Source of the DNA: Agarophyton chilense | Taxonomy: Eukaryota; Rhodophyta; Florideophyceae; Gracilariales; Gracilariaceae | NCBI GenBank assembly: GCA_030374765.1 | Contig: JARGXX010000006.1 | Location: forward strand, 372,001 to 436,000 | Reading direction: 5' to 3' | Length of the DNA: 64,000 nucleotides | Shown here: positions 26,962-54,697 of the stretch, piece after piece | Position numbering within the stretch: the stretch's first letter is position 1 | How the letters are laid out: the number at the start of each line of letters is the position of its first letter | The notes under the pieces: model-generated | The model's database searches: none | Seen by the model: the letters and a program-made list of their open reading frames with translations, nothing else | Told to the model about the DNA's origin: nothing | Position numbers and translations under genes: made by a program

Positions 26962-27117
26962 TTTCATCCTACTGAAGACCGAAAGGTTTTTTGTAATGAA
27001 AATATACACGGTTGACACGTGGACACCGTGGAAGTTAAGGTGATAACACGCCGGCAGAGGTCGTCCCCAACCTGACCTCTGCTGGTATGCCTTTGTCCTC
27101 GCCGAGTACGTTTTCTC
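26962..27117 (+). repeat. Left 156-bp terminal direct repeat of the DIRS-like element
   Basis: It begins TTTCATCCTACTGAAGACCG and ends GAGTACGTTTTCTC. It matches 43270-43425 with few differences and no length change. Confidence 0.88.
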
Positions 27118-29859: not shown

Positions 29860-30798
29860 TGAAGTGCAACCCTCGTGAGGGCCGTTTTCTAGGACTTTGT
29901 TGTTTTTCCGCCTCGGGCGATACTTGTGAGATCTATGAGTAATACCGCTACTAGCGGGCTGGCGTAGCCAGGTATATACGCGTTGTACGCGAAGTGCACC
30001 GGCGGCCGTTCGCCGTGGCCCCGATTCGGGTGTGACTTACCCACGTGTACCACGGATGGCCCAGGACAGGTTGGCACAGCATAGCTCGACATTTCTCTAT
30101 TTATTGAGCTTTATTACACTAGGTTAGGGAGCTCTCTACAGTATTCTACACTATATAGTGCCAGGGCGATCTCGCCCTGACACTCAGTAAACCTCCCCAA
30201 CCAGGGTTCTTGGCTCTAAGTCTTTTTCCGCTTTCGCGAGTCTTCCACACTCTACGGAGGTGAAGCCGCGTTACTAACGGTAGACTTATCCACCTTGCGT
30301 CAACAGGAGACTCACCGCCGTTAGCGTGTATATCTTTCATACCAACCAGGGTTCTTGGCTCTAAGTCTTTTTCCGCTTTCGCGAGTCTTCCACACTCTAC
30401 GGAGGTGAAGCCGAGTTACTAACGGTAGACTTATCCACCCTGCGTCAACAGGAGGCTCACCGCTGTTAGCTTGTATATCTTTCATACCACTGCCATGTTC
30501 TCGCCCCAGTATTGGGTTTGCTACATATTTCTTTTGGCTCTCGTGGCCCATGCCCCCGATCGCCCTCACTGGGTGGTCCCCCCTTTATCACTTGCCCACT
30601 CCCGTGGAATACAGCTAATACCTGGTCTGCTCCCTTCTAGCATCCCGCACTCTCCCCGCTTGGCGTGCCGGTGAACCTCGGCCTTACACCCCGAATTAGT
30701 CGTGTTCACTCCGGAGAGGCTCCGTCGCCGTGCTACCCTCCGTGGAGGAAGACTCGGACATCTCCGTGTGTTTCCGCCGCTTTTGGCGTTGCACTACA
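29860..30798 (+). repeat. Element 1 5' LTR (939 bp)
   Basis: TG...CA ended. It contains two tandem copies of a 145-bp unit (30197-30341 and 30342-30486) that begin CCAACCAGGGTTCTTGG; the same duplication is in the 3' LTR. Confidence 0.95.
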
Positions 30799-30801
30799 AA
30801 C

Positions 30802-30815
30802 TGATCTCCCGACTT
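30802..30815 (+). promoter_or_regulatory. Element 1 primer-binding site
   Basis: TGATCTCCCGACTT begins 3 nt after the 5' LTR. It matches the sites of elements 2 and 3 (TGGTCTCYCGACTT) except for A in place of G at position 3. It is complementary to a tRNA 3' end of the type CGGGAGACCA, which resembles tRNA-Tyr. Confidence 0.75.
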
Positions 30816-31170
30816 AGAAGGCTAGGGGGACCTGGTTTAGTTGTTTTTCACATTGCTGTGCTGTCTTCTCTCGTTGAGATCTGCTTTCCAATTTCTTGGT
30901 TTGGTCCCACTCGTTGGAAGCTTTTGTTGTCCTATTTTTAGTGGTCAACGCTACAACCATATCACGACTACCGTCGGAAGCGGAACCCGCGATCACGCGG
31001 AGCCGTTCCGTCAATGACGTGGTGCCTGCGGACCCTGGAAGGGTTCCCCCGCCGTTACCTCAAGCCGCTCCGAAAGGCAAGAGTAAGGGGTCGAACTCCT
31101 CCAATAACAACAAGCTACCGCCTAAGGCGTCGAAGAATGGACCCAATTCTGGTCTGGACCGGCCCCTGCC

Positions 31171-33087
31171 GTGGATGACCTGGCTCCTGCCGACGAAAAT
31201 GCCCAGAAAAACGAGTTCCACATCGACACCAACTCAAGTGTGAGGCAGCAGATCCGCGTAATGCGGGAAGCACACAATGCCTTCGTGGAAGAGTTCGAAG
31301 CCCTGCGTTCCAGGTGTGATGGCTCTTCTATGAAGGAAGTGGTTGACGACCTCCGCTTGTTGCGGGCGGTCGTCAACACCCTGTTGGAATGTTTTGGTGG
31401 TCCCGCCGCTTACGTGGAAGGTGTCGAGACCCGATTCATTCGTGTTAGCGCCCGTCTCCAGACGTTAGAGCAAACCATCTTGATGGAAGACGTCCCGGAG
31501 AAGCCGGTTGCTTTGTCGCACCAAGCGAAACACGAGAGGAAAAGGGACGATACCCGCCGTCGGCGTGGAAAGCGTGACAGCGATGACTCGGACTCGTCGA
31601 ACTCCTCACGGTCGTCGCGTGGCTCTCACCATTCAAATGGGTCGGACTCGTCAGATTTGTCTTCTGACGATGGCCATCGCAGGCGTTCATCCCGTTCTAA
31701 ACGGTCGTTTGCCACCCAAGGTGTGATCCGCGCCCGCGAGAAGAGAAGGAAACACTCCGGGTTGAAAGAGCTGAAATGCACCAACCCCCTGTACAAGAAG
31801 TTGGTTTCTTACCGATACTATCGGCTAGAGAACTCCTCTTTGGATCGCACGCCCCGTGGCACGGGTAGAGTGAAGGATTGCATAACGCGTATGCAACTGT
31901 CCCTCAGGAACCAGAGCTTTTCTGGAGAAGACCCCATTTTGGTGTTGGATTTCCTTGCGAGGTTCGTCGCCGAAGCGGATATTCTCGGTATGACCGAAGG
32001 ACAGGCGTTTATTGCACTCCCGTACTTTATGAAAGGCCTCGCCGAGGATCAATACAACTCTGTAAGAGGTTCGTCTAGAGCCTCCGAAGGAGGGGTAACC
32101 TGCTGGCCAGAAGCAGTACAATACCTCTTGAGGTCCTGCGCCACTAATTACGGGATTCAGTCGGCCATTCTCGCTCTTCGCGATACGCGCCAGAAGTCTA
32201 AAGAAACGGAAACCGAATTCTCGGTGCGCCTGAACAAGGCTTTCCACCGTAGTGGGAACGTACACTCCGCCGGAGAGCGCTGCACCATGTTCATCGATGG
32301 ACTGGACCCCGCTATCCGAACACTTGTGGCCCGTTACCGGGAAGACCGAAGGAAGACCACGTATCTGGAGTTGGTCCAACACGCGCAAGCGGAAGGTGAC
32401 GCTTTAAGAGCCCGTGCCCCCGGACACAGGTCGCGAACCGCCAAGGCGTTGGTGATGGAAACGAAGTCGCCATCCCTATCGCTGGTTGCGATTGAGCGCC
32501 CCCAACAGGAGTACGACAACGTACACTTCGCCCGAAGCGATATCCATTCGGTCCCAGCAACCGAACTACCGTCAACGACGGACGACTCATATGACACGGC
32601 CCAGGATGGACCCCTGCTGTACGCAGACTCTCCCCGTGTTCACGGACCTCGCATCCCGTATTCAAACGGTGCGCTCCGACAGAGTCGCCCTGGATGGAAG
32701 GATACCCGCCAAGCGGTGAAGTTCACGGATGCTCGCTCCGGTTTGCAGCCCTCACGCCCGGGACTCATATGCCACATATGCTACGAACACGGTCACATTT
32801 CACCGGACTGTATCCTCACCATGAGGGAAGTAGCCCGAGTAATCGGTAATTATGAGGCGTTGACCCCAGTGGAAAAGCGGATTGTTCCGATGACGTCGTA
32901 TCTTCGAGCGAAGATCGATTTTCCACGGAGTATTCCGGAGGCGAAACCGCGCAATGCGTTGCTTTACCCTGCCGAGCAGGCTCCCGACCACCGCCCCGTT
33001 CCTTCAAACCCCGCCGCTGCCGCCCCATTGCTAGTGGTTCAGGATTCTGAGGCCCCGCCCCAGGCGGATGGGACTCAGGAAAACTGA
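31171..33087 (+). CDS. Element 1 gag
   Basis: The frame is open from 31126 to the TGA at 33085-33087; the first in-frame ATG is 31261 (609 codons), while the 31171 codon is GTG. It has a coiled-coil-like N-terminal part, a Ser/Asp/Arg-rich tract (about residues 125-200) and a capsid-like core matching element 2 gag (CTNPLYKKLVSYRYYRL, RFVAEADILGMTEGQAF, VQYLLRSCAT). A zinc knuckle, C-x2-C-x4-H-x4-C, lies at about residues 534-547 (CHICYEHGHISPDC). A further N-terminal stretch, rich in Pro and basic residues, is open in another frame (30896-31150). The true start is therefore unclear, and a frameshift near 31150 is possible. Confidence 0.85.
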   Translation: MDDLAPADENAQKNEFHIDTNSSVRQQIRVMREAHNAFVEEFEALRSRCDGSSMKEVVDDLRLLRAVVNTLLECFGGPAAYVEGVETRFIRVSARLQTLEQTILMEDVPEKPVALSHQAKHERKRDDTRRRRGKRDSDDSDSSNSSRSSRGSHHSNGSDSSDLSSDDGHRRRSSRSKRSFATQGVIRAREKRRKHSGLKELKCTNPLYKKLVSYRYYRLENSSLDRTPRGTGRVKDCITRMQLSLRNQSFSGEDPILVLDFLARFVAEADILGMTEGQAFIALPYFMKGLAEDQYNSVRGSSRASEGGVTCWPEAVQYLLRSCATNYGIQSAILALRDTRQKSKETETEFSVRLNKAFHRSGNVHSAGERCTMFIDGLDPAIRTLVARYREDRRKTTYLELVQHAQAEGDALRARAPGHRSRTAKALVMETKSPSLSLVAIERPQQEYDNVHFARSDIHSVPATELPSTTDDSYDTAQDGPLLYADSPRVHGPRIPYSNGALRQSRPGWKDTRQAVKFTDARSGLQPSRPGLICHICYEHGHISPDCILTMREVARVIGNYEALTPVEKRIVPMTSYLRAKIDFPRSIPEAKPRNALLYPAEQAPDHRPVPSNPAAAAPLLVVQDSEAPPQADGTQEN

Positions 33088-33096
33088 TTTCGGGAG

Positions 33097-33112
33097 TCTC
33101 CCCTTCGGGAGA
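33097..33112 (+). promoter_or_regulatory. Possible recoding stem-loop at the gag-pol junction
   Basis: TCTCCC-CTTC-GGGAGA forms a perfect 6-bp hairpin, 10 nt after the gag stop. Pol is in the -1 frame relative to gag and is open from 33051, so the two frames overlap by 37 nt. There is no canonical slippery heptamer; GGAAAAC overlaps the last gag codons. Confidence 0.4.
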
Positions 33113-33125
33113 GGCGTCCCCAACA

Positions 33126-36100
33126 GTGAGGTTGACGACGCCCGAGGCGTCTCCGCCTCGCTCCCCGGTCACAATCCTCACGAGGAAACAGGCCGTCTCA
33201 GACGTGGACTCTGAACACTTTGGTGTTCTACGTCGACCGTGGAAACGTGTTCTTAACCGCCGGTTCCCGGATAGAGTCTTAGTAATGGCCAAGCGCAATT
33301 ACAAGGTGTATGCCGACCTTGGCCTTTCTACCCAGTTTATGGTTCGAGTCCTTACTGTTTTGGACACAGGTGCTGGTCTGAATTTCATCGTGGAGTCGCT
33401 GTTGTCCCCGCCCTTGCGGTCTCAGATCCGCCTTGGCGTGGCGCCCGACGTCGCGGACGCGAATAACAACCCGTTGTCAGCGATTGGAACCGTCGCTCTC
33501 GTCGTTCGCTTGGGCTCCTTCGTGGTGAAACTCGACTTTATTGTATGCCGGAAATTGGCTGCCCCCCTCATCTTGGGATGTGACTTCTGTGACAGATTCG
33601 TTGACGCCATAAGGCCCCGCTTAAAGCGTGTTGAGATGGAAGACGGCTCGTCGGTCCCGATTGTCCGTCGTCCGCTGCGGCGTGCCTCCAAGAAGCACGT
33701 ACCGCTCCCTGCCGCGCAGGAACCTCCACCCGCTTCTCGGGAGTCTACCAAGCTCCGCGTGGCTGCGTCTGTCCGAATCCCTCCAGAGTCCCAAGTATGG
33801 GTGCGTGTCACTTCCCGTCAACACGGTTTACGAGTCATTCAGCCTCTCTCATCTCTGTACGATGGATATCAACTCGCCGTGGCGAATGGAGTCGCGCAGA
33901 TTGTCCCATACAAGCCTTTCACCGTGCTCGTTGCCAATCTGGGCTCCACCCGACAGTCAATGGTGAAAAACCAAGTTATTGGATCGGTAATGCCTCACCC
34001 CACCGCGATGGTCCCCACTAGGCTGACCGCTGCCGAAGTCCTCGGTCTCGTTCACTCTAAGGAGGGGGAGGAAGCTGCCGTCCAATCACCGAATGATTCG
34101 GAATCGCAACCTGCCGAAACAGAAAAGAAGCCCGTTCCGACGAGTTACGCCCGGGTAGACCCCGTGAAAGAACTCGAGAAACTCGACCTCGGTCATGTAC
34201 CGGAGTCACACCGTGAAAGTCTGCGTGAGATGTTACGAGAGTTTACCACAATGTGGGATGACTCTCTTGGTGAGATAAATACAACGGAACACCGGATAGA
34301 TTTATTGCCGAACACCCGACCGGTTGCTCAACACCCTTACAGGGCAGGCCCCAAGGCTCGAGAAGAGGAACAGTTCCAAGTGAACAAAATGATCCGAGCT
34401 GGAGTGATCGAACCGGCTCAGTCGCCGTGGGCATCCCCAGTGGTACTGGCCCCGAAACCCGATGGGTCCTGGCGCTTTTGCATCGACTACCGTCGCTTGA
34501 ATAATGTTACCGTCAAGGACGTGTATCCGATCCCACGAATGGATGATTACATCGACTCTCTCGGCACTGCTACCGTGTTCACGGCTTTGGACGCCAATTG
34601 GGGATATTGGCAGGTTCCCGTTAGGGAGGAGGACCAAGATAAGACTGCGTTTGTCTGTCACTCGGGACTCTACCGTTTCAAACGGATGCCTTTTGGTCTA
34701 ACCAATTCTCCCGCTACCTTTCAGCGTGCTATCGACATTTTGTTGGCCCGCTTTAAGTGGCGTACTTTCCTCGTCTATTTGGACGATATCATTGTATTCT
34801 CAGACAATCTGGATGACCATCTCACCCATGTCAGGGACATAATGACCCCGCTACGTGATGCTGGAATAACCCTCAAACTGAGGAAATGTGAGTTCTTTAC
34901 CGATACTGTGAAGTATCTCGGGCACATTATCCGTCCTGGACGTGTAATGATCGAGGAAGCTCGAGTTAGGTCCCTTCGCAAGGCAAAAGAACCCGCTACC
35001 CAGACGGAACTGCGCTCCTTTCTAGGATTGGTCAACGTCTACCGACGGTTTATTCCTAACTTCTCTGACATCGCGGCCCCCTTGAACGCGCTTCTGCGGG
35101 AAGGTCAACCACCTAAACTGGACCCCTTTACGTCCGCCCAGACGGATGCTTTTAACTCCCTTAGGGAGGCTGTCACATCAGCACCGATTCTATCGTTACC
35201 GAAACCCGGACTACCGTTTTCCGTGGACACAGACTCTAGCGACTACCATGTAGGCTGTGCGCTCTTTCAAACTACTCCCGAAGGAGAACGCAAATCCATT
35301 GGGTACTGGTCCCGCTCGCTCAATGTCCACGAGCGGAACTACTCCGTGTCGGAGAAGGAGTGCCTCGCAGTTGTGTGGGCCCTCTCTACACTCCGCCCCT
35401 ACCTCATGGGTGTGCACTTTACCGTTTACACGGATCACTCGTCCCTACGATGGCTCATGACCATCTCGGAGCCGTCAGGCCGCTTAATGCGTTGGAGACT
35501 CCGCCTCGCGGAATATGACTTTGAAGTGATCTACAAGAAGGGCACTCAGAACGCGCAAGCGGACGCGCTTTCGCGTTTACCCACGAATGGGGAAGCTCTA
35601 GCCGTCGATGACGAGGATATACCTTGCTTCGTCGTAGACGATGGAACACCGGGAAACCCGGATTGGTTACACGATAAATGGAACGAAAGCCCGGAATCGG
35701 ACGATGATATTGACGCATTGCTCGTCTCGGACGATTCAGAGAAACCCCCGCCGGGTAATTTTGTGCCGATACCCCCGGAGGAGATGGTCAGAGAACAGCA
35801 GGGTGACCCCTTCTGTACGAAGATTCGCGCCTGGCTTAATGGCGGTGCACAACTCTCTTTCGAGGTGAACGATCTTGGATACCTCGTCAGGACGGTTCAG
35901 TCATCCCCACAAGTCGTGGTGCCGCATACTCTACAGTCTAGAGTTTTGCATCTATCCCACTATGCAAAACTTGGTGGACACGCTGGTGGACGGAAGCTCT
36001 ACCTCACATTGCGAAGGAATTTCTACTGGCCCGCCCTGGCGGTGGATTGCTACGCAACGGTGCGGTTTTGTACCGAATGTGCTAAGAATCGGGTGAAACT

Positions 36101-38831
36101 TCGCAAGTACTCAACGAAGTTGAAACTATTCCCGGCACGGGCTCCTCTCGAGTTTGTCGCCATTGATATCCTCGGCGAGCTCCTCACCACACGACGTGGG
36201 CATAAGTTTTTACTCGTTATCACGGATCGTTTCTCAAAACTGGTTCGGACCGTACCTTTACGGAAGATATCCGCTTTCACGGTTGCACAAGCATTTGTAA
36301 CCCATTGGGTATTCGTCTACGGCCCGCCGGTTAATCTTCTATCCGATAACGGAAAACAGTTCGCATCACGATTCTCCGAGGACGTGTGCAGGATTCTTAA
36401 CATCAAGAACCTGTTCACAACGACCTATCACCCCCAGTGTAATGGGCAAGTGTTGCGGTTTAACCGAACGCTATTGGCGTCTCTCCGTTCTTACATTGCC
36501 GACCACCCAATGACATGGGATTTATATACCGACGCCTTGACGTTCGCGTACAATACGCAGGTACACCGTACTACGGGCTTGACTCCATTCGAACTGGTCT
36601 TGTCCCGCCCTCCGCACGCTGTCGCGTTAGAACCCCAGCCCACGCTAGATGCGTTCCCTTCCGTGAAGGATTATCGCCACAGGTGGAAAGAGTGGCTTAC
36701 GAAGCTGATCCCGGTCGCCCGAAGCTCGATGGCTTGTGCCCAAGCCGCTTACAAGCGTGATTTCGACTCTCGCGTACGCGGTAAGGCCCCGCCAATCAAA
36801 GCCGGTGACTTCGTGTTCGTCCGTAAGGAGTACTGGAACCCTGAAAAGGAAAAGAAGCACAAGCTTTCTTCCGTCGCGGACGGTCCTTACAAGGTCATTT
36901 CGGTGAAAGACGACACCATCGTGGTGGAAATTGTCGACGATCATGAGCGGATCTCCCGCGACCGCGTTGTACTCGCCCCTCTACCGACGTTGGAAGTAAC
37001 CGAAATGGGTCACCAATCCCTCTCTGAGGATGACGGTGCTTGGCACACAACAGTGGCTCAGCCCACTGCCGTGGTTTCCAGACCTTCTGCGTTACCACAC
37101 CCTACCCGGGGACTCTCTGACTTGCCGATCTTATCGGATCAAGGCCAGAATGGCCTCTCTTCTCTCACGCCACGGCGCAGTGTCTACCCCCGCCCGTTGG
37201 GCGTTCCAACCACTCCCCATGCCGCTCCGTCTCAGGAGGGGGAGGAGGCTCATAACTCTCGTCGAGAGACGGAAACCGCTTCGTCGCGTCATGACAACCG
37301 TGGTGCACGGACTCCTGGACACACCAGCAAGAACAACGGTGATCCGGACGTCCCGTCTACCGACGTTCCATCTCCGCATTTGCGCGCTACAGCCGTTGCG
37401 GAACCCTCTATGGGAAGCGCCACCGCCTCTGCGTCTGATTGCACTCCCCACGGGGACTCTACTCGACAGGGCGCACCACGTAGTGGAAACCCTCTCGCCG
37501 AAGCGAAACCGAAATCGTCGCAGGATGCTGTTCGCCCTCGCGATACTGGACCGGCTATGCCGTCGAGCGTTGACCTGCAGCCCGTGGGTCACGGTTCGTC
37601 GACAACAGCTACGCTGGAAAACTTAGAGCACGCCCTCGCAGGCCCCTCTAGGCCGAATCGATCGGAAGTGGTCCCTCGTACTGTACGGCAGGACACACCG
37701 GCTAAGCCGGGCAAGCACACCGTAGCAGACGGGAGATTCACACCCAGCGCGCTTGATGCTGGTTCAGAACCCGCGCGCAGTGGCGGACGCACTCCGAGTG
37801 TCTCTGTTGACCCCGACCGCGTTGTCGAAGGCGCACCGGTCAACCCGGAGAATGTGCCCGTCAAGGACGGAAGCACCTCGTCGCCGAGTGAAGTTGAACC
37901 CTCGAAAGGGATAGTTGAGGACGAACTCGCTCCCCGCAGGGGTTCCTCGCCGCGCACTTCGCCGCCCGTTGGTGAGGAGGGCACGGTTTACCCGGAGTTG
38001 CACGCCCGTCGCGGTACTTTGTCGCCAAAGCGAGCAGACATACCGGCAGCGCCGTTGCACACGCCCTCACGTGAGGAGGCGGAACGCAGCACTGCGCGGA
38101 GTACTCCCAGCCATCAGCCGGACAGGTTACGTGACCAGACGACACCCGGCTCGGGAGATACGCCAATCCACGCCCAAGGCGGCTCACCCGGCAAGGCACG
38201 ACGCCCCGTGATGAAACCGCCTCCCGCGTCAAGTCCAGCACCGTCGCGACGGATTTCACCCCGACGACTCGCGGAACGCGACCGCAAAACCCAACCTTGG
38301 GATGATTACGCGTTCCCCCGAAGGGTGGCCTCTGCACGAGAACTCTTGGAAAGCATTCCGACCCAAAAACTGGGAGAATTGCCCCACGGGAAGGCCTCTG
38401 GCCGAAGCCGTCGAACTGACGCTCTTCGTCATGACGCCTTGGCGGAAGCAACCCGCCAAGCGGCCAAGGCAACCCGGAACCCGGTTCGTTCCCCTACCCA
38501 GGGCATGGAAAGGCAACGCCAACCCATGGACCTCTCGGGGGAAGGGCACAGTAGCCCACACGCACCTGCGGACGTAACCCGGTTTGGTCCGGTGACGAGT
38601 ACACCGCAAGGGCGGGAAGTCTACGAGAAGGAGTTCGTGGTCGACCACATAGTGGAGCACTCATACCATCCGGATGGTTATATTCAATACCTCGTCCGTT
38701 GGTACGGTTTAGGGCCCGAATGGGATTCGGATGAGCAGATGGAACATCTCCCACGTTCGAAGGTGGTGTCATATCACCGCAGAACGCGGACGGGAATCCC
38801 GGCATCGGTTGTTAAAGCCCAGGTGGGATAA
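33126..38831 (+). CDS. Element 1 pol polyprotein with chromodomain
   Basis: It is one open frame of 1901 codons from a GTG; the frame is open from 33051 and there is no ATG at the start, so expression from gag by frameshift is likely. Protease: TVLDTGAGLNF (Asp 80). RT: FTALDANWGYWQVPV and LVYLDDIIVFS (Asp 553/554). RNase H: SVDTDSSDYHVG, SEKECLAVVW and YTDHSSLRWL. Integrase: HHCC finger starting at HLSHYAKLGGHAGG, first Asp 1014 (FVAIDILGE), second Asp 1074 (LLSDNGKQF). The position 36 residues on, where Glu is required, is Leu 1110 (GQVLRFNRTL, codon TTG at 36453). A linker of about 540 residues rich in Pro, Ser, Thr and Arg precedes a C-terminal chromodomain (FVVDHIVEH, YLVRWYGLG, WDSDEQMEHLP). 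Confidence 0.93.
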   Translation: MRLTTPEASPPRSPVTILTRKQAVSDVDSEHFGVLRRPWKRVLNRRFPDRVLVMAKRNYKVYADLGLSTQFMVRVLTVLDTGAGLNFIVESLLSPPLRSQIRLGVAPDVADANNNPLSAIGTVALVVRLGSFVVKLDFIVCRKLAAPLILGCDFCDRFVDAIRPRLKRVEMEDGSSVPIVRRPLRRASKKHVPLPAAQEPPPASRESTKLRVAASVRIPPESQVWVRVTSRQHGLRVIQPLSSLYDGYQLAVANGVAQIVPYKPFTVLVANLGSTRQSMVKNQVIGSVMPHPTAMVPTRLTAAEVLGLVHSKEGEEAAVQSPNDSESQPAETEKKPVPTSYARVDPVKELEKLDLGHVPESHRESLREMLREFTTMWDDSLGEINTTEHRIDLLPNTRPVAQHPYRAGPKAREEEQFQVNKMIRAGVIEPAQSPWASPVVLAPKPDGSWRFCIDYRRLNNVTVKDVYPIPRMDDYIDSLGTATVFTALDANWGYWQVPVREEDQDKTAFVCHSGLYRFKRMPFGLTNSPATFQRAIDILLARFKWRTFLVYLDDIIVFSDNLDDHLTHVRDIMTPLRDAGITLKLRKCEFFTDTVKYLGHIIRPGRVMIEEARVRSLRKAKEPATQTELRSFLGLVNVYRRFIPNFSDIAAPLNALLREGQPPKLDPFTSAQTDAFNSLREAVTSAPILSLPKPGLPFSVDTDSSDYHVGCALFQTTPEGERKSIGYWSRSLNVHERNYSVSEKECLAVVWALSTLRPYLMGVHFTVYTDHSSLRWLMTISEPSGRLMRWRLRLAEYDFEVIYKKGTQNAQADALSRLPTNGEALAVDDEDIPCFVVDDGTPGNPDWLHDKWNESPESDDDIDALLVSDDSEKPPPGNFVPIPPEEMVREQQGDPFCTKIRAWLNGGAQLSFEVNDLGYLVRTVQSSPQVVVPHTLQSRVLHLSHYAKLGGHAGGRKLYLTLRRNFYWPALAVDCYATVRFCTECAKNRVKLRKYSTKLKLFPARAPLEFVAIDILGELLTTRRGHKFLLVITDRFSKLVRTVPLRKISAFTVAQAFVTHWVFVYGPPVNLLSDNGKQFASRFSEDVCRILNIKNLFTTTYHPQCNGQVLRFNRTLLASLRSYIADHPMTWDLYTDALTFAYNTQVHRTTGLTPFELVLSRPPHAVALEPQPTLDAFPSVKDYRHRWKEWLTKLIPVARSSMACAQAAYKRDFDSRVRGKAPPIKAGDFVFVRKEYWNPEKEKKHKLSSVADGPYKVISVKDDTIVVEIVDDHERISRDRVVLAPLPTLEVTEMGHQSLSEDDGAWHTTVAQPTAVVSRPSALPHPTRGLSDLPILSDQGQNGLSSLTPRRSVYPRPLGVPTTPHAAPSQEGEEAHNSRRETETASSRHDNRGARTPGHTSKNNGDPDVPSTDVPSPHLRATAVAEPSMGSATASASDCTPHGDSTRQGAPRSGNPLAEAKPKSSQDAVRPRDTGPAMPSSVDLQPVGHGSSTTATLENLEHALAGPSRPNRSEVVPRTVRQDTPAKPGKHTVADGRFTPSALDAGSEPARSGGRTPSVSVDPDRVVEGAPVNPENVPVKDGSTSSPSEVEPSKGIVEDELAPRRGSSPRTSPPVGEEGTVYPELHARRGTLSPKRADIPAAPLHTPSREEAERSTARSTPSHQPDRLRDQTTPGSGDTPIHAQGGSPGKARRPVMKPPPASSPAPSRRISPRRLAERDRKTQPWDDYAFPRRVASARELLESIPTQKLGELPHGKASGRSRRTDALRHDALAEATRQAAKATRNPVRSPTQGMERQRQPMDLSGEGHSSPHAPADVTRFGPVTSTPQGREVYEKEFVVDHIVEHSYHPDGYIQYLVRWYGLGPEWDSDEQMEHLPRSKVVSYHRRTRTGIPASVVKAQVG

Positions 38832-39009
38832 CACCCACCTCGGTGGAAGAGAAAAGAGAAGTAGGTTTGCTTGAGAACAGGCTAGTGAAGTAAGGTTTTG
38901 GGTTACACAAGTCACTTGGTTTTTATTCGAAGCTATCGATGGAATACCGAGCACTCGGGATACTCCTCTAAGTCACAAGGGAAACTCCCCATCAGGATCG
39001 CGTGCCCCG

Positions 39010-40575
39010 TCACGGGTTCGGCTCACCGCCCCCAAGTTGGTTACCTCCCTGGAGGCGGGTGATCAAGGCCTCGCGCATCGCGGCAACATCGCCACTCGCT
39101 GCGTTGGTCCCCAGCCCCACCTGTCGCAGGAACTGGGAGATCACGGCCGCCTGACCCGCCGGAGCGGAGCTCGCATCGCCTGGGGCGGACGCCCCACCAC
39201 TTGGGAGATTCACCGGTGGAACCGGAGGTGGTCCAGCTACCGCGTACTCCGACCCAGCCCCCGCGGGGTTATCCAAATCCACGTAGGGCGTGGCTGATGC
39301 CCCCGCGTTAGAGGGACCTTCCGCTTCGGATCCCTCGACACCCGCCTCGGCGTACGCTTTCCCGTCGTCGGGTTCGTTGTACACCATTGGATCGTCGCCG
39401 TCGTAGAAGTGGTAATATTCATCTGCGTCCACTAAATCGATCGGATGCCCCTCGGGGATATGGCGCGGTGCAAACCGGAGTTCGTTCGCTTCCTCCGCGG
39501 AGATTTCGTGCCCTTCCCAAGGGTCAAAGTATACGAAATCACCTCCCAAGGGAGTAAGCCTTCCTGGTGACAGGTCCTGACCCCGGCTACCCACGGTGCG
39601 CCCGCTTTGTTCAATCGGAACGGTGGTCCAGTCCAACTGGTCGATGCAATCGAGAAGTCCCGCCACTTCTTCGGCGTTGGTTACTCCACCAAGTGGGATG
39701 CTCAGGTCCAGGCTGCGAATCGCGGACCTCAACCGGAACGGGAGGAACCGCAGTCTGTACTGGTCATACACCTCCCAGAGGATGAACACCGCCGCGCGGA
39801 CTGCCCATTCGGTAATCACCACGGACCACAGTCCGGACTCGGGATCCTCGATGAGGTACGAACCGTAATACGTGATGACTGGTGGCAGCTCGATGTAACA
39901 GCCCCGGCAGGCCTCGAGGTTCGACCACCACGGTGGAATGAGGACATAGCGACCCCGTCGGTCGGCCACGTGAAGGCGTTCGATCTCCACGTTCTGATAC
40001 AGGACCAAATACCCGAATCGGGATCGTGCTCGACGCTCGAAGCGGATCAGGGCGAGGAAGTTGGCCCGCGCAAGTCGACGCATGTAGCGGAATTCTGCCC
40101 GGATAATCGGTCGCGTCCAGCACATGGCCTCTTGCCGTGCTATCGGGATGCCCCTCCACGAGAGTGTTTCCAAACCCGCCAGGCGGTCGACGTAACCAAT
40201 CTCACCTTGAGTGCAGTAAAGCCGAATGTCGGTGCCGAGACCATCGGAGATGGGATATTCGAAAGGGGCCCGGCGACGCCGTTGATGGCCAAGAAGGACG
40301 AAGGCCGCATGAGCGGAAGCCGAGGTTTCACTACCCCGGCGCGCCACAGCGTAGACCGGAACCGCTACGCGGCGTCGCCAATCCAACGAAGTTGTCACCA
40401 CGGCCAGAATATCGCCCGGCAGCATCCCGTTTCCATCGGTGTACATCGCTATGAGCGCTTCGTTTAACACTGCAATCGGGTGGAACCACGGCGCAAGCCG
40501 GAGAACGGACGCCTGATGCCCAGGATGGCGCCCGACAAGCCTGTCGTATGGCGGCCACCCTCTCGGGGGGAACAT
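39010..40575 (-). CDS. Element 1 antisense ORF (aORF), new family
   Basis: The frame has 521 codons from an ATG at 40575, on the strand opposite to gag-pol and tail-to-tail with pol (178 bp between stops). It aligns nearly end to end with the decayed antisense ORF of element 2 (54698-56379): APWFHPIAVLNEALI/APWFDPVAIRDDALI, RARSRFGYLVLYQNVEI/RTRSRLGYLVQYQMIEI, SLDLSIPLG/ELDLSLVLG, GDFVYFDPW/GDFVWYDPW and, near the end, QFLRQVGLGTNAASGD/QFLLDAGFPVDQVEGD. The N-terminal 350 residues are rich in aromatic and basic residues, with one hydrophobic stretch (WSVVITEWAVRAAVFILW). The last 150 residues are acidic, then Pro/Ala/Gly-rich. Homology reaches upstream of this ATG (GFRSGPLPQ), so the ancestral start was probably 40713; a TAA at 40671-40669 now interrupts it. 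I know of no similar protein; function unknown. Confidence 0.85.
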   Translation of the reverse strand: MFPPRGWPPYDRLVGRHPGHQASVLRLAPWFHPIAVLNEALIAMYTDGNGMLPGDILAVVTTSLDWRRRVAVPVYAVARRGSETSASAHAAFVLLGHQRRRRAPFEYPISDGLGTDIRLYCTQGEIGYVDRLAGLETLSWRGIPIARQEAMCWTRPIIRAEFRYMRRLARANFLALIRFERRARSRFGYLVLYQNVEIERLHVADRRGRYVLIPPWWSNLEACRGCYIELPPVITYYGSYLIEDPESGLWSVVITEWAVRAAVFILWEVYDQYRLRFLPFRLRSAIRSLDLSIPLGGVTNAEEVAGLLDCIDQLDWTTVPIEQSGRTVGSRGQDLSPGRLTPLGGDFVYFDPWEGHEISAEEANELRFAPRHIPEGHPIDLVDADEYYHFYDGDDPMVYNEPDDGKAYAEAGVEGSEAEGPSNAGASATPYVDLDNPAGAGSEYAVAGPPPVPPVNLPSGGASAPGDASSAPAGQAAVISQFLRQVGLGTNAASGDVAAMREALITRLQGGNQLGGGEPNP

Positions 40576-40970
40576 TCCGTACGGAGCAGCAGCCGCGTTC
40601 GCGAAAGGAATCTGCGGCGCAGCCGATGACGCGCTTTGCGGAAGCGGACCGGACCGGAAGCCGGAGAATTACCCCGCAGGGAGACGGTTGGGTTGATTGT
40701 TTTGGTTGCTCATAGGTGAGCGAAGAGGCCGGATGACCGGAAGAGGAGACCGGCGAAGCGAAAGACGATGCCGAGGAATCGGAGGACTGGCACGCAAGGA
40801 TGCGGATTCGGTTGAGATGGAACGTTGAGAACGGTTGTTGCCAGGAGACTGGAGTTTTGCCGCACTGCGTTTGTTGGCATCGGATGAAGTGGATCCCAGC
40901 GAGCTGGTTGCACTCTTATGCATTCGTCTCGGCGCGTCGCCCACCATCGCGGATGTCGTACTCGCGCCTC

Positions 40971-40980
40971 AGGAGGGGGA
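40971..40980 (+). promoter_or_regulatory. Element 1 polypurine tract
   Basis: AGGAGGGGGA lies 2 nt before the 3' LTR, the expected place for plus-strand DNA priming. Confidence 0.8.
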
Positions 40981-40982
40981 TA

Positions 40983-41922
40983 TGAAGTGCAACCCTCGTG
41001 AGGGCCGTTTTCTAGGACTTGGTTGTTTTTCCGCCTCGGGCGATACTTGTGAGATCTATGAGTAATACCGCTACTAGCGGGCTGGCGTAGCCAGGTATAT
41101 ACGCGTTGTAAGCGAAGTGCACAGGCGGCCGCTCGCCGTGGCCCCGATTCGGGTGTGACTTACCCACGTGTACCACGGATGGCCCAGGACAGGTTGGCAC
41201 AGCATAGCTCGACATTTCTCTATTTATTTAGCTTTATTACACTAGGTTAGGGAGCTCTCTACAGTATTCTACACTATATAGTGCCAGGGCGATCTCGCCC
41301 TGACACTCAGTAAACCTCCCCAACCAGGGTTCTTGGCTCTAAGTCTTTTTCCGCTTTCGCGAGTCTTCCACACTCTACGGAGGTGAAGCCGCGTTACTAA
41401 CGGTAGACTTATCCACCTTGCGTCAACAGGAGACTCACCGCCGTTAGCGTGTATATCTTTCATACCAACCAGGGTTCTTGGCTCTAAGTCTTTTTCCGCT
41501 TTCGCGAGTCTTCCACACTCTACGGAGGTGAAGCCGAGTTACTAACGGTAGACTTATCCACCCTGCGTCAACAGGAGGCTCACCGCTGTTAGCTTGTATA
41601 TCTTTCATACCACTGCCGTGTTCTCGCCCCAGTATTGGGTTTGCTACATATTTCTTTTGGCTCTCGTGGCCCATGCCGCCGATCGCCCCCACTGGGTGGT
41701 CCCCCCTTTTATCACTTGCCCACTCCCGTGGAATACAGCTCATACCTGGTCTGCTCCCTTCTAGCATCCCGCACTCTCCCCGCTTGGCGTGCCGGTGAAC
41801 CTCGGCCTTACACCCCGACTTAGTCGTGTTCACTCCGGAGAGGCTCCGTCGCCGTGCTACCCTCCTTGGAGGAAGACTCGGACATCTTCGTGTGTTTTCG
41901 CCGCCTATGGCGTTGTACTACA
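40983..41922 (+). repeat. Element 1 3' LTR (940 bp)
   Basis: Counterpart of 29860-30798; one extra T near 41708 and about 17 substitutions. The 145-bp internal duplication is at about 41320-41464 and 41465-41609. Confidence 0.95.
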
Positions 41923-41927
41923 GAAGT
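41923..41927 (+). repeat. Target-site duplication GAAGT, right
   Basis: Partner of 29855-29859. Confidence 0.93.
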
Positions 41928-43173
41928 CACGGAATCTGAAGGACCGGAAACCGAAGCAAGCAGTCGGGATCGCTGTAGCACAGGGGAGGGGGTCGGGTGG
42001 GGTCCAAAGTTTTTGGCGGGGAGGTCGAAAGGGGCCAGGGAACGCTATCCGGAAGGCCGTCTGGGGCCTCCAGCGGGAGCCGTGCTGGAGGAGGTTCTAA
42101 GTGTGCAGGTGACGTCCCAGGAGGTATCAGAGGCGGTATGGGAGGCAGTATCGAGGTCGACACATGCTGTGGTTGGCGAGAGGGTGGGAGGAGAGCAAGT
42201 AGCAATGCTGCTCAGTGACCACGGCGATGCAAAGAGGACAATGAGCGCAAGGACGACGGAGTGGAGGGCTTTCTGTGAGTACCGACTGGAAGTGGCCAGG
42301 GGTGGGGGTGGAGGTACTGAGGCGGTGGATGGGATTGACTTGGTCTGCTTTGTTGGCTGGCTCTCACAGCAACGCAAGAAGGGCAAGCGTAAGGTTTCAA
42401 GTCTTTCTTTGCCGCAGTACCGCTCAGCGGTACGCACGATGCATTCTAAGCTCAACCTACCGCTGCCTCCGACGCCGACGGAGTACCCCCCTCTCCCGAG
42501 GGTGATCAAGGCGTACAAGAAGTGGGAGAGTGAATTGTTCCCTCTCGCAGATGTGCGGGTGGGGATGGGTGCTGGGCTGGCGAGACAGATCTGGAGGAAG
42601 GGGATGGCGGCGGGGACAAGTGCGACGTGCGTGCGAGATGCAGCGATGGTGGTGTTCGCCTTCATATTTGGCCTGAGAGAGTCAAGTGTCCTGCATATCA
42701 AGGTTGAAGATATCTACGTGCTTACGTCCCACCGGTGTGAGGTGCTAGTGCGGTTTTTGAAGGGAAGGACAACTGATGAGGCGGTTCTGAGGGGTCCGAG
42801 GAGCTATGTGCCGCCGGGTCAAGATGAAGTGGAGATGCCGTTGTCTTTGGTGGTGAAGCATCTGTCGATGCCTGGGTCGGACTCGCAGTACCTTTTTTCT
42901 GGAAGGCGCCCGATTGCGGGATGGATGCAGCAGCGATTGCAACTGCTACTGGAGTCCGAAGGAGTCCGCGCGCCGGAGGGTTATTGCGACTCGTCGCATA
43001 GCATGCGCCTGGTGTCATTGACGGAACGAATTCTGCGTGGAGGATCGGTCGTTGAGTTACTCGCTCTCTACGATTGGGCATCCTCTTCACAGGGTATGCT
43101 ATCTGTCTACTTTGACCGAAGGATATCTACGACGCCGGACTCAAGGTGGTTCTTTTCTCAAGGTGGTGTGTGA
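41928..43173 (+). pseudogene. Tyrosine recombinase of the DIRS-like element (3' part, split by element 1)
   Basis: The C-terminal half has the tyrosine recombinase pattern: first Arg in FGLRESSVLHIKVEDI, HxxR in DSSHSMRLVSLTERIL, and a Trp/Tyr end in YDWASSSQGMLSVYF. The frame is intact to its TGA. Its 5' end lies on the other side of element 1: a frame with an ATG at 29696 runs open to 29859 and continues in phase at 41928 when the inserted element and one GAAGT copy are removed. The gene was therefore one frame overlapping the end of pol before the insertion. Confidence 0.8.
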
Positions 43174-43269: not shown

Positions 43270-43425
43270 TTTCATCCTACTGAAGACCGAAAGGTTTTTT
43301 GTAATGAAAACATACAAGGCTGACACGTGGACGCTGTGGAAGTCAAGGTGATAACACACCGGCAGAGGTCGTCCCCAACCTGACCTCCGCTGGTATGCCG
43401 TTGTCCTCGCCGAGTACGTTTTCTC
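43270..43425 (+). repeat. Right 156-bp terminal direct repeat of the DIRS-like element
   Basis: Same unit as 26962-27117. A 7-bp inverted repeat (CTTGGGG ... CCCCAAG, 43228-43250) lies just upstream, after the recombinase stop. Confidence 0.88.
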
Positions 43426-45215: not shown

Positions 45216-45874
45216 TGTCGTATAGCGCCAGAAGGTTTGACCTTTGAAGTTGTCAATATCCTACACTGACCTTGTAGGTGATGAATGCGAGGGATCATCG
45301 GCCATGCAGCTCCGGGCGAGCTACCATCTAGGTGTTGCCAGCCACGTGTAGTGTTGACATGTACCTTCTGGTTGAGTAATTGTTAGTAATTGTAATTGTA
45401 ATCATGTTTATTTTAGTACAGTAGTGGAGTGGCCACCTGGCACTGTAGCCAGTGCTGGCCAGGTCTCTGACACTAGGTCAGAGACCTTGCCTTGCTGGCA
45501 CCTCCCGGGTGATCTGGAGAGTGCAGTCCACTACATATAGGGAACTGCACCTCCCCCATCCTAATTTGATAAAGACAGGCACCACTTGGGTCACGACTAT
45601 ACCTTTTGGTTCATCGTTTCTCAACTACCCCACAGGCTTTCCCGCTCGTCGACGCCTACCATCGTTTACCTACACGGTATAGGCTAGTTGCCCCGCCGTT
45701 TGCACCTGCGGGTTTTCACGGTGCTCTGTTACCATCAAGGTTTACTACGTCTACCTTCTAAGGTTGAGCGTCACCACGCTCCCGACGGTTGAGCGTCACC
45801 ACGCTCCGGACGGTTGAGCTTCACCACGCTCCCGAGAAAAGACAGTAGCATACCCCAGAGGTGATTGTACGACA
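45216..45874 (+). repeat. Element 3 5' LTR (659 bp)
   Basis: Limits are inferred from the terminal inverted repeat TGTCGTA...TACGACA, the sharp change from copia sequence on the left and the primer-binding site 3 nt to the right. The other LTR is outside the window, so the limits are not confirmed by repeat comparison. Confidence 0.75.
45762..45836 (+). repeat. Three tandem 25-bp hairpin units in the element 3 LTR
   Basis: GGTTGAGCGTCACCACGCTC plus 5 bases, repeated three times. The core GAGCGT-CACC-ACGCTC is a perfect hairpin in the first two units and has one mismatch in the third. Confidence 0.9.
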
Positions 45875-45877
45875 TTT

Positions 45878-45891
45878 TGGTCTCCCGACTT
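45878..45891 (+). promoter_or_regulatory. Element 3 primer-binding site
   Basis: TGGTCTCCCGACTT, 3 nt after the inferred LTR end. It begins with the TGG expected opposite tRNA CCA. Confidence 0.82.
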
Positions 45892-46021
45892 GGAAATTGT
45901 TTTTAGGTTTCCTCGTACCTTCACGGTTCACATGAGTTTCCGAGAAGGAGTGGACTCTCGTACACCTACTTGGTTTCAGGAAATCCCGCTAAGCATTACG
46001 GGATACCACTATTGGTCACAA

Positions 46022-48246
46022 ATGGAACGACCTAAAAGGAATACGCGTGGTGCGAGCGCCCCACCAAGCCATAAAGGTCTTAAAGGAGCCCCATCGGCTC
46101 AACCGATTCTGGAAAACCTCGAGGAGCTGCTCCGGCACCCTCGGGACGAAACCGTAAAGGTACTTGGTCCGCCGCCTATGGAAACGGAACCTCAAAGGGA
46201 ATTAACAATCGAGGTTGCAGCGGAGGAGCTATAGCCTCAGCTCGTAGAGCGAGCGAAAGCGCTCGTCACCCTCACAGTCGAGGATGCATTAACCTTAAAG
46301 GAGAAGTCGGATACCCGGATGGTTCCGCCCTCAATGGACGTCGATGCATTTACCCGTATTGTGGTTGACCGAGCAGCTCAAGAGCTGTCGGGAAGGATAC
46401 CTGAAATGGGGAAACAGTATCTCTTTACAGATGCCAGGGAGCATGTTTAGCGCGCTGTGCAGGACGTTTGGGTTTCCGAGGGATTCGCAGAATCCCGACC
46501 TACACAGTTGAACATCTCGAAGCGCGTACCACGAGGGTTCCAATTAGGTCATTCTACTCATTCCAAACACTTACCTACTGATAGTGAGTACCTACAAGGT
46601 CCAAGGCAAAGTCAAGAGGTCCCAGGGAAGGTAGATCTTCAAGACATTTACCTGCCACAAATTAAAGGTTTCGTTCAAAAGGATACCCATAGAGGTGGTG
46701 CCTAGGACGATTTGTCTGACTCGTTGGATGAGCGACGAAGAAACCGAAAAGAAAAGAAGCGGAGGACGAAGAGGGGAAAGAAACGAGAGGATGGTTCAGA
46801 CCCCCGACTCGACAGACTCCAGTTCCGATACGAGTTCATCGTTGGATGATGACTGTAAAGGTAAGAAGAAGAAGAAGACGAACAGGTCGACGAAGAAGTC
46901 GTCGAAAAAGAACCGAAAGGGTAAAAAGCGATACAATGAGTCGCCCGACTCTGGGTCGGACACCGAAATGGACCTGGAGGTGTACCAACCGTTGAACGAT
47001 ATGTTCACCAAAGCGGTTGATTACAGGACTTATCGGTTGATCAACAAGTCTTCTTAATACACCCAAGAGGGTGCTCAGAAGATTAATAAGCACCACAAGA
47101 AGCTCAGCTTCCAAATGGGTGACACAACCTTCACAGGTACGGATCCTATTGCGGTAAATGAGTTTCTACAGAAGTTCAAGCTTGCATGTGACCAAAATGG
47201 GTTTTCCGAGGGCACTGTTATGTGGCTATTTCAGTTTTACCTTAAAGTACAAGCATACTACTTGCTGCAGGGTATGCTCCGCGGCAACACCTTAGCGATG
47301 GATGAGGATGGCACAGAGATGTTGGAGTCATGCCCAGAGGTGGTCATTTCCTTTTGGAAACATATGCCACCGATGAGGTTATCCAAGAGGCTTAGTCGGA
47401 AGTCCTCGCTTACCATCAAAGGTCTGGGTAAACCGAATCGGAGTTTTCGCTCGCGCTTTGGAATCTGGAAACCCGTTGTGGTAATGTGTTCACTACCTCG
47501 AGGTTAAAGTCGCTATTTGCCGACAATGTCGACAAAGCGATCCGTTCCCAGGTACGCAATTACCTGGTACGCAATTACCTGGCCACTAACCGAAAGGTAG
47601 TCTACAATGGGCTGGCTCGATACTCCCAGGGCCTTGGAGATACTCTTCTGCTGGGAAAGAGACCAGCCGTGCCTCCAACCTTGAAGGATAAACCGAAAAG
47701 GTCGGTCTTGGAAATTGAAGATACCACAACCTCAGAGGGTAGCTCGCACCTCGAAGTACCTACAGGGATCGCTATCCACTGGGTAGGGACCCAGGGGCGG
47801 TTCTCGAATCCGTCGTCGGTAGGAAATTGGTCGTCAACGCGTACACCAACTCGGTACAATCGCCGCCAAGTTCAGTGAGCTCGCATAGGATGCCAGTAGC
47901 GAGCTCCCATAACTCACCACCCACATCCGACGCCACTGCTCCTACCAACCAGGTTTCGAAGCCCCCCTCAATGGTAACGCGAGACCCTCAAACTGGAGGC
48001 CTCGTTTGCTGGTTTTGTCTCGCGACAGACCATTTGGCAAAAAATTGCCCTAACTTACATCCAGGGATGAGAGACCAGTTGATTCAGGCTCGCATGCAGA
48101 ATCACCAACACCTCTATGGGTCTTCAACGCAAGCACCAAATAGGTTCCAACCCCGTACACCGGTACAGATCAATACCATCGAGGAAACACCAAACTTGGA
48201 CTCCACCCCTCCCGTACAGGAGGAAAACACCGAGCGGTTGGCGTAA
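46022..48246 (+). pseudogene. Element 3 gag, broken
   Basis: It starts at an ATG giving MERPKRNTRGASAP. There are several stops (46232, 46448, 47054) and frameshifts. A Ser/Asp/Lys-rich tract (SSSDTSSSLDDD, then poly-Lys) precedes a capsid-like segment (DPIAVNEFLQKFKLACDQNG) aligned with the element 1 gag core. A zinc knuckle, CWFCLATDHLAKNC (C-x2-C-x4-H-x4-C), is at about 48010. The order matches elements 1 and 2. Confidence 0.75.
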
Positions 48247-49443
48247 TGGCCGAACCCAACCTGCAATCGGAAGGCCAATATATACCCAGAACCTTGAAGG
48301 TAGAAGAGAACACGTCACAACCAGTTCCGGTTTGTCATATGAAGTACAACAACTATAAAGTACGTGCTTCAATGTGTTTCTCCGATCGCCTTGCGGTTCC
48401 GGTCACCTGCATGTTGGATACGGGGGCCCGCCCAAACGTGCTGAACTCCCGCGTCATACCTAAGGCGGTACTTCGGAACTTGAGCCGACCTCCCGAAAAC
48501 AACCCGCTGGTGGATGTAAAAGAGCGCCCATTAAACCTTCGAGGTATGCTCACCCCTTTGGTGCAGCTCGGACACCTCAAGGTAAGACTGCAATTCTTTG
48601 TTGTCGACCGTTTACCGACAGACTGCCTACTAGGTACGACCTTCATTGACAGACATGTCAAAGCAATCCTTCCTGGTTCCCATACAGTCGCCCTACGTCA
48701 CGGGGGACGAATTTCCATTTTAGGTAATACGGAAACCAAACGGGGATGGTTCGTCAAACCGAAGAAGAGGATATCCACCGAAACGGTCTCCAACAAAGTG
48801 TGCATTACCAAACAGGTTGTTATCCCGCCAATGCACCAAATATTGGTACCGGTGTCGTTTGCGACCCCCGGGCTGGTCATATTACAAAACCATCCGAGGT
48901 TGGCACATTGACATCTCACCTTGATGGCCAACGGGATTGTCGACATCATCCCAAATCAACCCTTTAAGGTGTGTCTCAGCAACTTCAGCAGTCATGACGT
49001 GAAGTTGCCGAAAATTACCAATGCTGGCATCGCACTACCGGCACCACAAGGTTTCTTCACCGTAGCTCACACTGATCTCGGCGAGGTCGCCCTCGATAAG
49101 GAAGGGGGGTGCGCAAATGCGTCCACAACCAGAAAGGTATCGATAAATACCAACTTGGAAGCGAAAGTAATCGATAAGGCATCGGTAGACAAAGAAGAGA
49201 AACCGGACCCTGAGAGGCAATGGCAGGATACAGTCCAGATCGGTGAAGAAAACGGCCAACTGCGGGGCCGTATCATCGACCTTCTGGAGGAGTTCGAAAC
49301 CATGTGGTCAGGCCATCTGGGCCAAATTAAGGCCACACCGCATCGCATCGAGCTCCTCTCTGACTCGAAGCCGATTTACCAGCAACCATACCGAGCAGGT
49401 TCAAAGGCGAGAGAGATAGAACTCAAAGAAGTGGAGCGAATGC

Positions 49444-50110
49444 TGTAGTATCCGCTCTAACGGAGGGAGCAGACACCTGCGACAGCGTTCGGACTGCCGA
49501 TGGGTCGCTTGCGGCGAAGGAAAAGGGGTGGTAGAGCTACAACACCAGCGAGCTGGAAGTGGGGTGTAAGGCCACTACTCGCCAGCGAGGGTGAACAGTG
49601 CAACTGTAAAACGTTGATGGAACGTAGGTACGAGACGGCTCGTGAAGTGGTTCGGGGCTGGCTATCTATGATAGCTCGTCCGGATCTCTGGTTAAGGCAT
49701 CCTAAGCGAGGAACAGAACAGTCATGATGCCCATGTTGTCTCCTTTACTTGGAGTCGGCGCTCACCTCTGGTACACTACATACTGTGTACCAAGGTGAGT
49801 GCCCAAATAAATATATAAATAATACCCAGTGGTCAGCCACTTAGCCAAACCACTGTATGGGTATGGTCCCTAATGGACGTCTAGCTACAAAGGGTAGTAG
49901 AACCAGCCACGTGGATCGCCACTACATGCGCCGTTGCAAGCCACTCGACCCATGACGCCACGTGTTCCACTAAGAAATTCTGCCTGTAGGCATCCTATGC
50001 GGTGTGCCGTTTCATATCACAATGCTGATGATATCACTCACTTATGAGTTCCAACCGCGACTTCGCGAAAAACCAACCTATCGGATTCCCCGACATAGTA
50101 GAATACTACA
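49444..50110 (-). mobile_element. Solo LTR of the element 2 family in element 3 pol
   Basis: A 667-bp unit, TGTAGTATCC...GAATACTACA, nearly identical (about 98%) to 53864-54529. It is flanked by AATGC at 49439-49443 and 50111-50115. Removing it with one AATGC restores the RT frame (VERML|QEGVIEP). No internal sequence is left, so it arose by LTR-LTR recombination. Strand is given relative to element 2's transcription. Confidence 0.95.
49761..49799 (-). repeat. LTR-internal imperfect hairpin
   Basis: CTCACC-TC-TGGTACAC pairs with GTGTACCA-A-GGTGAG around an 8-nt loop. The 53864 LTR has the same structure at about 54181-54219; its one arm change leaves a wobble pair. Confidence 0.6.
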
Positions 50111-53100: not shown

Positions 53101-53449
53101 GGTGGTAGGGCTGGGGACCAGAAGGGGACACCCTCGAACCCCCAGAAGCAATACCCCCACACTTCCGTATCAGGTATTAGCGCCGTCGAAAGGAGCCGAT
53201 GCCTGCAGACGGCTAACCTTAGACCGTCGTGGTACTCAGGCCTAAGGAAGGGGGCGAAAAGACGTTTTTTTCCGCTGAAGGTGGACGCATATGCGTCAGA
53301 TTATCTACAAGGGAGGACACGAAAGAACAACCAAATGTGGCAGTAGAAGAGACAAGAAGAGACCACAATTTACTTGAAGAAGGAGACGCTGAGGAAGTCA
53401 AGTGGCAGGCGGCCGCCACAAGAACCTGAAAGGCGAAGCGACAGAAAGT

Positions 53450-53863
53450 CTAGCCCCCGAATCGGAGAGTAGAAGGACCTGTCAGTTGTGGAGCATTGGG
53501 ATCGGGAGGACCCGTGTTATTGACTACCGACGAAGGAAAACTGGCAGGAATGCTATGAGCCATCGACATAGGAGGTAGCGAAGGAGTGGTAGCCTTGCCA
53601 CTGGGGATAGGAGTCGAAACCAAAAGATGATGAACGAAAGGAACCACCGCAACGGGTTGCAAAACCGCAGGGTTCAAGTTAGTACCTAGAAGGGGATTCT
53701 TCAAAGCATCACATGGCGTAGCAGCAGAGACGTTCGCTAGATTGGCAACCTGACCGGTCGCCAGTTGGTACATGTCCAACTGAAATTGATTCCGGAACTC
53801 ACCAAGTTGGTTAAGCGCCTTCATGAATTGCGCATGGCGCGGGTAGAAAACGTTCAAGGAGCG
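53450..53863 (-). CDS. Element 3 antisense ORF fragment (3' end)
   Basis: A minus-strand frame is open for about 137 codons from the element 2 insertion point (53863) to its stop at 53450, on the strand opposite to element 3 pol and tail-to-tail with it (about 200 bp). This is the same place where elements 1 and 2 carry their antisense ORFs. Sequence: LNQLGEFRNQFQLDMYQLATG, then a Pro/Ser/Thr-rich tail. I see no convincing similarity to the C-terminus of the other two, so homology is inferred from position only. Its N-terminal part would lie beyond element 2, outside the window. Confidence 0.4.
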   Translation of the reverse strand, partial: RSLNVFYPRHAQFMKALNQLGEFRNQFQLDMYQLATGQVANLANVSAATPCDALKNPLLGTNLNPAVLQPVAVVPFVHHLLVSTPIPSGKATTPSLPPMSMAHSIPASFPSSVVNNTGPPDPNAPQLTGPSTLRFGG

Positions 53864-54540: not shown

Positions 54541-54697
54541 TTAAGCGCGAACCATGGGGGACGCAAGAAGCGTTTATACGCAGTCGGACCGGTGTTCCGG
54601 GGACTCATCGTCATCATGAAATCCTCGCCGCCTGACCAACTCTTACAGTTCTCAACAGCATTCTGTTCCTCACCGCTCTTCAGCTCGATCTCTCGCG

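Follow-up and report, generated by a model that had tools for sequence, protein, structure and literature searches.

Ty3/gypsy elements in the genome of the red alga Agarophyton chilense carry, on the strand opposite to gag-pol, a protein-coding gene that is kept by purifying selection. This gene, here called the aORF, was found in a window of 64,000 nt (contig JARGXX010000006.1, positions 372,001 to 436,000), and is shared by at least five element families in the genome and by two proteins of the red alga Gracilariopsis chorda. Its product is probably a nuclear regulator of the elements or a factor that counters their silencing, as judged from where the gene lies and how it would be expressed.

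Two elements with an antisense gene

Element 1 is a complete LTR element on the + strand (29860-41922), with TG...CA ends and the target site duplication (TSD) GAAGT on both sides (29855-29859 and 41923-41927). The 5' LTR (29860-30798) and the 3' LTR (40983-41922) are 98.2% identical, and in both of them about 145 nt are tandemly duplicated (30197-30489 and 41320-41612). Between them lie gag (31261-33087, 608 codons), which matches the Pfam models Retrotrans_gag and zinc knuckle, both far below the cut-off, and pol (33285-38831, 1848 codons), where Pfam matches give the order RT, RNase H, integrase, followed by a long linker and a C-terminal chromodomain. A polypurine tract, AGGAGGGGGATA (40971-40982, +), named by its position and composition, abuts the 3' LTR.

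Element 2 lies on the - strand and is cut by the window end. Its 3' LTR (53864-54529, TSD GAGCG at 53859-53863) is 97.0% identical to positions 27-693 of the adjoining stretch L063, where the 5' LTR, truncated in the window (63927-64000), is complete. Since gag (61672-63360, 39-43% identity to element 1 gag) and pol (57659-61327, 53% identity to element 1 pol over 1245 positions) are also common to both, the two elements are, by sequence comparison, sister Ty3/gypsy families. Element 2 pol ends in a chromodomain (56780-56965, -), which is seen at the C-terminal end of pol in three families, with 30.8 bits in family 2, above the Pfam Chromo cut-off of 25.1 bits, and 24.7 and 20.9 bits in families 1 and 3, both below it. 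The assignment of the host elements to the chromoviruses, as originally proposed, is based on this domain and on the domain order in pol.

Both elements hold an opposite-strand reading frame between pol and the 3' LTR, as the original prediction had stated, and the frames are found within LTR-bounded elements. In element 1, aORF1 spans 39010-40947 (-), a frame of 645 codons whose extent, including the start at 40947, was determined by comparison with intact copies; 23 nt separate this start from the polypurine tract. The window copy is broken by a TAA at 40669-40671 (codon 93 of the 645), which leaves an open part of 521 codons from an in-frame ATG (39010-40575, -). The gene had been placed at 39010-40713, with a length of about 560 codons. 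Position 40713 is indeed an ATG, but the TAA ends that frame 14 codons later, and the proposed length is too short for the intact gene. In element 2, aORF2 (54554-56379, +) runs antisense to gag-pol and starts 24 nt from the LTR. This copy is also damaged: its reading frame shifts near 55255-55270 and is interrupted by stops at 55411-55413 and 56110-56112. Thus, of the proposal that two diverged elements each keep the frame, homology of the two aORFs stands, but both window copies are interrupted. The two proteins share the motifs quoted in that proposal and align with 43% identity over 264 positions and 35% over a further 98 (tblastn E = 1e-66).

The window also contains a more distant Ty3/gypsy element, element 3 (about 45216-53863, continuing at L063:694-2204, with a TSD AACCT identified by eye), into which element 2 has inserted and in which no homologue of the aORF was found. 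Between its pol and 3' LTR, the antisense strand has two stop-free frames (137 and 102 codons) without a match to the aORF, which are perhaps the remains of another antisense gene. An apparently solo LTR of the element 2 family (49444-50110, 97.6% identity to 53864-54529) lies within the pol of element 3. Element 1 is flanked by an RT ORF (RVT_1) and a second ORF, at 28180-29526 and 42205-43173, the second of which resembles a tyrosine recombinase by eye and has no Pfam match. These ORFs are enclosed by a 156-nt direct repeat (26962-27117 and 43270-43425, 94% identity), and the flanks are possibly, by their sequence features, a DIRS-like element split by element 1. Further observations in the window are a cluster of tandemly related segments at 23314-24030 (about 73-82% identical) and a gene of the CpeT/CpcT family, which has a phycobiliprotein-lyase role. 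Like the G. chorda homologues of the aORF, this gene speaks for a red-algal origin.

Conservation across copies, families and hosts

The genome (79.8 Mb in 135 contigs) was searched with protein queries, and as only the best candidates were scored, all counts are lower bounds. The family 1 aORF protein gave at least 83 matches, and a 200-residue piece of aORF2 at least 150. At least 75 matches at 49-52% identity to the database protein P0002 were the source of family 3, family 4 was recognized by matches that share 57-71% of their residues with a G. chorda protein, and family 5 was found with P0009 as the query. The layout of family 3 (L062) is the same as in the window, with integrase and chromodomain on the + strand and the aORF on the - strand; the pol side was seen in families 1 to 3, and families 4 and 5 are known from the aORF side alone.

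Absence of the ORF from other family members had been named as a point that would speak against the gene. When copies were collected with a 601-nt family 1 integrase probe, an aORF match lay on the opposite strand, 2371-2868 nt downstream of integrase, in 40/40 scored copies (40 of 836 candidates), although some of these matches were partial. The whole frame is open in 17 of 30 family 1 copies, one of the 17 lacking the first ATG; the 30 are the best-scoring ones fetched, and the set is therefore biased to well-preserved copies. Counted from the first Met in 2-4 copies per family, intact proteins are 645 (family 1), 608 (family 2), 618 (family 3), 591-597 (family 4, where one copy lacks the first Met) and 622-650 residues long (family 5).

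Among the best candidates scored from a database of 5.8 billion proteins (in part 8000 only), nine relatives were found, two of which are annotated in G. chorda (Rhodophyta, Florideophyceae). In a tree of 18 proteins, family 4 groups with the G. chorda protein P0001 (support 100/100), and family 3 with P0002 (100/99). These pairings suggest that the aORF lineages had already separated when the two hosts split, unless elements have moved between hosts. The tree also bears on the possibility that the aORF is a host gene captured and carried by the element. Gene capture is known for LTR elements (PMC7264820), and the database relatives may include a homologue that is a host gene. However, the presence of the aORF in at least five families and the sister position of family 4 and P0001 indicate a gene that is old in the elements, again unless these moved between hosts, and we consider capture very unlikely.

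Selection acts on the protein

Across families, a codon model of 12 sequences and 518 ungapped codons gave an omega of 0.248 (lnL -10727.2, compared with -10989.8 at omega 1, where kappa was fixed at 2 and not refitted), which bears out the suggestion that selection acts on a protein. The third codon position is the most divergent between families; for families 1 and 3, for example, the differences at positions 1 to 3 are 0.48, 0.42 and 0.67. Between families the aORF dN is 0.69-0.84, and dS is 2.7 or more and often saturated. The original prediction had pointed to an overlapping sense frame as a possible source of the constraint. The other five frames contain 7-26 stops per sequence, and the similarity within them was matched by at least 26 of 300 synonymous-codon shuffles in every case, so no other frame is under clear extra constraint. 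In a neutral simulation with 30% change, 0 of 1000 frames remained open.

A chance open frame, or the shadow of a gene on the sense strand, might still be suspected, as many family 1 and family 2 copies have sense frames (298 and 271 codons) that overlap the aORF. This explanation is refuted by the frame, selection, linkage and simulation tests, and we assign it a negligible probability.

In the stretches that could be aligned between families 1 and 2, pol has a dN of 0.39, gag one of 0.64 and the aORF one of 0.61-0.73; over the whole aORF it is 0.80-0.81. In the same pair, residues that are identical use the same codon in a proportion of 0.39, compared with 0.31 after shuffling (sd 0.035), and the excess is smaller in the other two family pairs. 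There may thus be a mild constraint at the nucleotide level besides that on the protein, as far as codon usage can indicate it.

Within family 1, the ratio of nonsynonymous to synonymous variants relative to expectation falls from 0.90 for singletons through 0.69 (doubletons) to 0.59 among variants found in at least three copies; for this last class it is 0.37 in the core of the protein. All of these values come from small counts. The shared variants amount to 22 nonsynonymous and 15 synonymous changes, i.e., a weak signal, and the same test gave no selection signal at the 3' end of pol.

A folded core between charged tails

AlphaFold2, run with 15 alignment rows, predicted a confident core at about residues 127-509. 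Stretches at both ends of the protein are disordered in the model, and a helical piece near the C terminus (596-632) is weaker. Modelled alone (384 residues, 18 rows), the core is mostly helical, with a mean pLDDT of 89.4 and a pTM of 0.89. The original prediction had remarked that the protein resembles none known to its author, which agrees with our searches: the sequence has no match in Pfam, PHROGs or the PDB sequences, the model has no solved PDB chain with a matching fold, and the full-length model has no match among viral models. Compared with these solved chains and viral models, the predicted core may be a new fold. No DNA-binding or other recognized domain was found in the protein.

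The tails differ between families. The N-terminal tail has a pI of 10.8-12.0 in families 1 and 2 and in both G. chorda proteins, but it is not basic in family 3 (pI 4.9-5.0), P0002, P0008 and P0009; families 4 and 5 lie outside the computed set. A basic, nuclear-targeting tail is therefore not universal. The C-terminal tail is acidic in 13 of 15 rows (pI 4.1-4.4). Within this otherwise variable tail, families 1 and 3, P0001, P0002 and P0003 share a short stretch similar to DDPMVDNEP, which is maybe a binding motif. In the C-terminal tail of one distant homologue, P0009, the stretch VIEISSDED resembles the consensus of a SUMO-interacting motif.

The slot between pol and the 3' LTR is where retroviruses have env (PMC7264820), and a membrane, envelope or movement protein that serves cell-to-cell spread is one conceivable product. 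Genes for env are read in the sense direction, i.e., opposite to the aORF, and the full-length model has the viral comparison against it as well. A hydropathy window of 19 residues usually indicates a membrane segment at 1.6. Family 1 peaks at 1.7, just above this threshold, but the stretch is predicted as a helix inside the confident core, and the maxima of the other 14 rows are 0.93-1.57. From hydropathy and model, a membrane segment is unlikely, and an envelope-like role is very unlikely indeed.

The protein could also be structural or particle-associated, in which case it would bind Gag, RNA or cDNA and help packaging, reverse transcription or nuclear entry. A globular, mostly helical core with charged tails would fit such a role, as would divergence at about the rate of gag in the aligned stretches. 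On the other hand, the aORF shows no relation to gag of the same element (hhalign probability 0.4%), no solved chain shares its fold, and separate antisense expression would leave its dose untied to that of Gag. We regard this as an unlikely explanation, and packaging and movement, two of the roles that the original prediction had offered next to regulation, have no specific support.

Expression and possible function

The start codon lies 35 nt from the 3' LTR in family 1, 24 nt in family 2 and 79 nt in family 3 (the last counted by eye), and the polypurine tract sits in this gap. Such distances leave little room for an internal promoter, which makes the LTR the most likely start of the mRNA. 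From this geometry only, we infer that the 3' LTR of element 1 is the site of the antisense promoter. At the other end, AATAAA is found on the aORF strand 52-82 nt past the stop in families 1 and 2, including one at 38922-38927 (-), 82 nt beyond the aORF1 stop, which may be the poly(A) signal for the antisense mRNA. Within 200 nt of the stop it is present in 28/30 family 1 copies and in both family 2 copies examined, and it was not seen past the stop in two family 3 and two family 5 copies, one of the latter with only 109 nt readable.

The arrangement suggests a separate antisense mRNA that would be transcribed from a DNA copy, from the 3' LTR to near the pol stop. With an antisense start in the LTR, the protein would be made from DNA copies rather than from the element's own RNA, and apart from Gag-Pol. 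Production apart from Gag-Pol would suit a trans-acting regulator, or a factor countering silencing, better than a coat protein. The protein would then be soluble and trans-acting, and its most likely site of action is the nucleus; the folded core would serve as a binding module between charged, disordered tails. In the nucleus, the protein might govern whether element copies are transcribed or silenced, or what becomes of their RNA. Taken as a whole, i.e., a selected antisense gene with an mRNA from the 3' LTR and a nuclear, trans-acting product that regulates element copies or their RNA, this reading has in our estimate a little less than an even chance of being correct.

A narrower role would be that of a suppressor of host silencing. 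The aORF and pol are arranged tail to tail, and convergent, complementary transcripts are therefore expected; silencing by dsRNA has been raised for the antisense genes of plant elements (PMC7264820). The aORF protein might counter the small-RNA or chromatin silencing that sense and antisense transcripts together provoke. This idea is pure deduction, the protein resembles no Pfam or PHROGs family, and we consider the idea rather unlikely.

The regulatory reading may be extended to an independently acquired strategy similar to that of HBZ in HTLV-1, in which a novel-fold protein, expressed antisense from the 3' LTR of integrated copies, would control how far its own family is silenced or how many copies the family has. 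At least five families would then have kept the protein from a time before their hosts separated. We put this forward as a tentative proposal that is doubtful at present.

Comparison with known systems

HBZ is a bZIP protein, and the predicted aORF product is large and globular. HBZ of HTLV-1 and its relatives is likewise encoded by an antisense gene, has its promoter in the 3' LTR and is a nuclear protein (PMC7264820; PMC11963269); it differs in hosts and element class, and the two are here compared by description. Among retrotransposons, antisense ORFs are described between pol and the 3' LTR in the plant elements Grande, RIRE2, Retand and PvRetro13 and in the fungal element Boty (PMC7264820; PMC11963269). 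By position, the aORF belongs to this class of antisense accessory ORFs of LTR elements, termed aORF-3R: the antisense slot is occupied in families 1 to 3, and the ORF is present in every scored family 1 copy.

A close parallel in layout is with the Retand lineage of plants, including Retand, Grande and RIRE2, which are Ty3/gypsy elements with an antisense ORF in the same slot. The antisense ORFs of Retand encode TRP28 (PF04195) and are called regulatory by analogy; within the Retand lineage such an ORF occurs in nearly all clusters, with its function described as unknown and regulation proposed (PMC11963269). Retand is, however, a non-chromovirus lineage of flowering plants, whereas pol of the aORF hosts ends in a chromodomain, and the TRP28 Pfam model covers 69 positions compared with about 384 residues in the aORF core. 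Eight aORF members gave no hmmscan match to TRP28 at E up to 1, and a six-frame genome search with PF04195 also gave none, which is uninformative as the control genomes were silent too. The same eight members had no match to the Plant mobile domain (PF10536), for which the control genomes gave no match in the genome search either. In Grande, the promoter lies upstream of gene23 (PMC7264820), whereas for the aORF we infer a start in the LTR.

The gene brtn of Boty/BcGypsy1 is likewise an extra antisense gene of an LTR element, but its host is the fungus Botrytis cinerea and the likeness is one of description alone (PMC7264820; PMC8365987). ORF2 of PvRetro13 from Phaseolus is antisense in the same slot and is said to carry an SMC domain (PMC7264820), while the aORF has no SMC match in Pfam. 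Judged by title and the start of the abstract, none of the open-licence matches listed reports an antisense gene in red-algal elements, and in PMC6317226 neither "antisense" nor "red alga" occurs. The aORF protein family and its chromodomain hosts appear to be new.

Reports of antisense accessory genes in LTR retrotransposons go back years and leave the function of these genes unexplained (PMC7264820; PMC11963269). The aORF brings together a selection test, linkage in every scored copy, families that seemingly predate the split of their hosts, and a confident structural model. With its well-folded core of 384 residues, it offers a compact and testable case in which to ask what makes a selfish element retain an antisense gene. 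It also raises the question of whether the antisense genes of plant, fungal and red-algal elements and of retroviruses are convergent answers to one problem.
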